Of a stretch of 64,000 bases of DNA, positions 18,994-19,300 are shown in pieces. A program made the position numbers and the translations under genes. Origin of the DNA: Struthio camelus (lineage: Eukaryota; Chordata; Aves; Struthioniformes; Struthionidae); NCBI RefSeq assembly GCF_040807025.1, contig NC_090981.1, positions 36,931,817 through 36,995,816 on the forward strand. Reading direction: 5' to 3'. Numbering within the stretch: position 1 is the stretch's first letter; the number at the start of each line of letters is the position of its first letter. The notes beneath the pieces were generated by a model. It saw only the letters and a list, made by a program, of their open reading frames with translations, made no database searches and had not been told where the DNA came from.

Positions 18994-19130
18994 AACCAGG
19001 TCACAATTGCATAAAAGGATGAATATTTTAAAGCAGCACTAGTACTCTTGGAGGAAACAACACGCCTGTTTGTCAGAAAGAATCTGGATTCTAGCAAGGA
19101 AAAAAAATCTTTGAGGGAAGCGAGTTGTTA

Positions 19131-19153
19131 TCTTTGGTTATCTAGCTGTATGA
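19131..19153 (+). ncRNA. MIR9-2: mature miR-9-5p
   Basis: This is the guide arm. The seed (positions 2-8) is ctttggt, the miR-9 family seed. Its 23 bases are identical to the animal miR-9-5p I know, so targeting should be the canonical neural set. Confidence 0.97.
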
Positions 19154-19167
19154 GTGTTTTGGTCTTC

Positions 19168-19189
19168 ATAAAGCTAGATAACCGAAAGT
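19168..19189 (+). ncRNA. MIR9-2: mature miR-9-3p (miR-9*)
   Basis: This is the star arm, 22 bases, beginning ataaagctagat. It pairs with the 5p arm. In vertebrates it is also loaded and targets CoREST (RCOR1), the partner of REST, which is a 5p target (known biology). Confidence 0.95.
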
Positions 19190-19300
19190 AAAAACTCCTT
19201 CAAGATCATCGTGCAGCGTGTGAAAATGAAAGACTACTGCGAGAGACAGTAAAACCCGAGAAAGGTCAGGAATGCTTATTGAATCTAACGTTTTTACAGC

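Follow-up and report, generated by a model that had tools for sequence, protein, structure and literature searches.

The window analysed here (a 64,000-nucleotide stretch of Struthio camelus DNA) carries a pre-mir-9-2 hairpin at 19116..19202 on the plus strand, as identified by Rfam family RF00237, by its predicted fold and by alignment to the mir-9 paralogues. The Rfam mir-9 covariance model matches positions 19122-19197 (+) with 85.3 bits (E = 1.6e-15) against a gathering score of 58.6, and the plus strand of the hairpin folds with a minimum free energy of -39 kcal/mol, compared with a mean of -14.8 for 200 dinucleotide shuffles (z = -8.67), none of which was as stable. Both the match and the fold are far beyond chance, and the hairpin stands where a first-pass annotation of this DNA had placed it. 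A CNNC motif (CATC, 19207..19210, +) starts 18 nt past the 3p end, a position typical of this Drosha-processing motif. The two arms are intact, as had also been claimed: the guide arm, miR-9-5p, is present in its exact letters at 19131..19153 (+), its mature sequence being that of mml-miR-9 in Table 3 of PMC2254598, and miR-9-3p occupies 19168..19189 (+), again in exact letters, with both arms found unchanged in the hsa-mir-9-1 sequence that PMC11172088 prints. With a model score above gathering and two intact arms in one stable hairpin, 19116-19202 belongs to the mir-9 family. Searches with exact miR-9 patterns gave no matches in collections of viral and prokaryote contigs, as expected of these collections, and phage records searched with 19050-20400 likewise gave no match.

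Because the mature arms are identical in mir-9-1, the arms alone cannot decide the paralogue, and the differences of the window from mir-9-1 and mir-9-3 sit in the loop and the base of the stem. Only the mir-9-1 reference used for this comparison is a printed sequence; the references used for human mir-9-2 and mir-9-3 are provisional. End to end, 19116-19202 is identical to the provisional hsa-mir-9-2 reference at 86 of 87 positions: the two precursors share both mature arms, the stem, the basal flanks and a length of 87 nt, and differ in one base of the loop. That loop reads GTGTTTTGG in the window, exactly as the first-pass annotation gave it and one base off the human loop, again by the provisional human reference. 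Identity falls to 69/90 with the provisional mir-9-3 and to 74/89 with hsa-mir-9-1 as printed in PMC11172088, such that the loop and stem base are of the mir-9-2 type and the earlier assignment to paralogue 2 is supported, as far as the provisional mir-9-2 and mir-9-3 references go. Since the provisional human mir-9-2 and the window hairpin have equal minimum energies (-39 kcal/mol each), the change in the loop is silent for the predicted fold; it may be a lineage-level change, as the first-pass annotation proposed.

Text searches of the literature for the mir-9-2 precursor letters returned nothing usable, the matches being to mir-9-1 and to one unrelated-looking paper: a 13-letter string in PMC7943821, a study of CRISP1 that is unrelated by its title, equals the loop of the provisional human reference. 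The mir-9-2 genes of chicken and zebra finch are reported in PMC5824543. As a separate observation, the 82-nt miR-9 precursor listed in a moth miRNA atlas (PMC13164255) occurs without a mismatch within human mir-9-1 and probably represents a reference entry, not a sequence of the moth itself.

Downstream of the hairpin, the window resembles the long noncoding RNA that hosts mir-9-2 in mammals, as judged from published primers for human LINC00461 and its mouse orthologue C130071C03Rik (PMC5663582, Table 1) and for mouse Visc-1 (PMC4585502). The human LINC00461 forward qPCR primer matches host lncRNA sequence at 19980..20001 (+, 20/22) and its reverse partner matches at 20117..20138 (-, 20/22), two convergent sites that would delimit a product of 159 bp 0.8 kb downstream of the hairpin. 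The mouse C130071C03Rik forward primer has a perfect target at 20330..20351 (+, 22/22), and the forward primer of the mouse Visc-1 riboprobe matches at 20161..20180 (-, 18/20), in an orientation opposite to its label. All four sites thus lie 0.8-1.2 kb past the hairpin, with identities of 90-100%, and those of the LINC00461 pair and of the C130071C03Rik forward primer fit the strand of the hairpin. For each matching primer, none of 200 shuffled primers reached the observed score, nor did any of 60 versions of the window generated by a first-order Markov model; 26 primers for 13 unrelated genes from the same table each had at least 5 mismatches in the window, and among the 63 distinct primers tried overall only these four stand out. 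At the level of sequence, the LINC00461 pair together with the C130071C03Rik forward primer places mir-9-2 within LINC00461.

Three of the seven host primers (Visc-1 riboprobe forward and reverse, Visc-1 qPCR forward, C130071C03Rik forward and reverse, LINC00461 forward and reverse) are without a match in the window, namely the Visc-1 riboprobe reverse, the Visc-1 qPCR forward and the C130071C03Rik reverse primers. Primers for Visc-2, Visc-3, AK036048, AK125167 and AK082072 gave only chance-level matches in the window. According to PMC4585502, the putative start sequence of Visc-1/2 fails to align to non-mammalian genomes. The two primer pairs of PMC4577824, one amplifying mouse pre-mir-9-2 together with flanks of 80 bp and the other used for ChIP at its Ngn1 site, had no significant match in the window; the flanking reverse primer for mouse pre-mir-9-2 aligns in the right place (16/23 at 19235-19257), but 177 of 200 shuffles score at least as high.

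The window holds nine CpG islands of at least 500 bp, seven upstream of the hairpin (801-18490) and two downstream (24571-26420). The nearest upstream island (17971..18490) is a candidate proximal promoter, and the other six, spread over 13 kb at 801..13940 (801-2200, 4691-5760, 6811-7760, 9041-9950, 10781-11830 and 13251-13940), mark a candidate promoter region of the host gene; GC content per 2 kb is about 46-56% across this tract and falls to 35% past 14 kb. These islands are consistent with the CpG-island promoters reported for MIR9 loci in PMC5366901. The downstream pair at 24571-26420 lies about 5 kb 3' of the hairpin. The window has a single perfect CRE (TGACGTCA, 9492-9499), which falls within a CpG island and precedes the hairpin by 9.6 kb. 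Also upstream are one MEF2-consensus site (17018) and two CATATG E-boxes (16079 and 16931), which are uninformative given that the window has 21 MEF2-type and 20 E-box matches in total (about 1.6 per 5 kb each). The best match to an RE1 consensus covers 13 of 19 specified bases and is unconvincing.

Weak Rfam matches to mir-297 (best E = 0.0008), mir-466 and snoZ223 were rejected as far below gathering scores; those resembling mir-297 and mir-466 fall at 16056-16152 on both strands (best 40.7 bits, gathering 90) and are probably a simple repeat. There are no repeat families of 80 bp or more in the window as detected with exact seeds of 14, and a pattern for the 3' end of bird CR1 elements matched once in the window, against 0.6 matches expected by chance. 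The lack of such repeat families speaks against a SINE-rich mammal, and the CR1 count does not back a bird origin; judged by the analysis alone, the source is probably a non-mammalian amniote.

The first-pass annotation also set the window between MEF2C and TMEM161B. All eight primers for these two genes gave only chance-level matches within the 64-kb window, as did a tblastn search of the window with a C-terminal peptide of MEF2C (best E = 0.68). Going by human distances, both genes may fall outside the window; MEF2C is Z-linked in birds. Human LINC00461 lies between MEF2C and TMEM161B (PMC5663582), miR-9-2 in mouse forms part of the last exon of Visc-1, located between Mef2c and Tmem161b (PMC4585502), and miR-9-2 is described as lying in an exon of linc00461 (PMC3502497). 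Because LINC00461 is flanked by these genes in human, we infer by orthology from PMC4585502 and PMC5663582 that the window belongs to the same interval. Of the earlier claim, the neural MIR9-2 host locus is therefore supported by four host primer sites beyond the hairpin, whereas its MEF2C/TMEM161B setting follows by orthology only, neither gene being seen in the window. The locus is almost certainly the orthologue of MIR9-2, with the hairpin lying within or next to a plus-strand exon of the LINC00461 (C130071C03Rik/Visc-1) orthologue.

Two other origins for the hairpin were weighed against this assignment. Were it another mir-9 paralogue, either mir-9-1 (C1orf61 region) or mir-9-3, the same mature arms would be found, at least in mir-9-1, and two of the three references, for mir-9-2 and mir-9-3, are provisional; however, the end-to-end identities given above favor mir-9-2 over both, and the LINC00461 primer pair matches downstream of the hairpin, leaving this reading next to no chance. 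A pseudogene of the mir-9-2 host exon, arisen as a dispersed or processed copy at another place in the genome, would fit a window in which no flanking protein genes were found, but such a copy is very improbable: the hairpin is intact and followed by a CNNC motif, the similarity to the host transcript extends to all four primer sites, and CpG islands occur on either side, as they should in a functioning developmental locus.

The orthologous host exon might in addition encode a small peptide, since an ATG-initiated frame of 95 codons is open at 19786-20073 (+), overlapping the conserved host sequence, and the site of the LINC00461 forward primer lies inside it and aligns without indels. PMC4585502 describes the mouse transcripts as free of ORFs above 100 aa, which has no bearing on a frame of 95 codons. 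Identity outside the frame (20117-20138 and 20330-20351) is equally high as inside it, which makes coding unlikely; moreover, one of the two differences inside the frame is silent and the other exchanges K and Q, and the enclosing ORF has no Pfam match, so that we regard a coding exon as very improbable. Among the literature matches listed for LINC00461 with a micropeptide, neither term appeared in any title. A Pfam scan of 10 of the 52 ORFs of at least 120 aa, mostly picked outside the densest CpG islands, produced no match at E 0.1. The description of the 64 kb as otherwise gene-less holds insofar as these 10 ORFs are without Pfam matches, but not in view of the host lncRNA sequence and the nine CpG islands present.

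The hairpin can also be read in antisense: the reverse complement of 19122-19197 (-) scores 67.4 bits with the Rfam mir-9 model, which is above gathering, and its fold has a z of about -10 (-10.05). This near-symmetry of the hairpin may lead annotation pipelines to report a mir-9 copy in antisense. If the locus were transcribed in antisense, a second mir-9-like pair with a different seed could arise, although we consider this, too, to be very improbable.

In mammals, the host RNA is transcribed neurally and cropped by Drosha and Dicer, with one hairpin yielding two mature miRNAs. By this established miRNA biology, neural cells would transcribe the host RNA of the MIR9-2 orthologue from the CpG-rich upstream region, Drosha and Dicer would release miR-9-5p and miR-9-3p, and the two, once loaded into Argonaute, would repress their targets in neural progenitors. 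MEF2C (PMC3979806) and Ngn1 (PMC4577824) are reported as activators of miR-9-2. The features of the window depart in nothing from the established mammalian mir-9-2 mechanism.

The identification is thus correct and useful, and what it identifies is an ordinary, deeply conserved and well-known brain microRNA gene. Evidence beyond the hairpin ties these 64 kb to the neural locus of MIR9-2 and LINC00461, for which the gene is a good landmark, and it marks sites of the host transcript as conserved between mammals and the species of the window, within a biology that is itself already well described.
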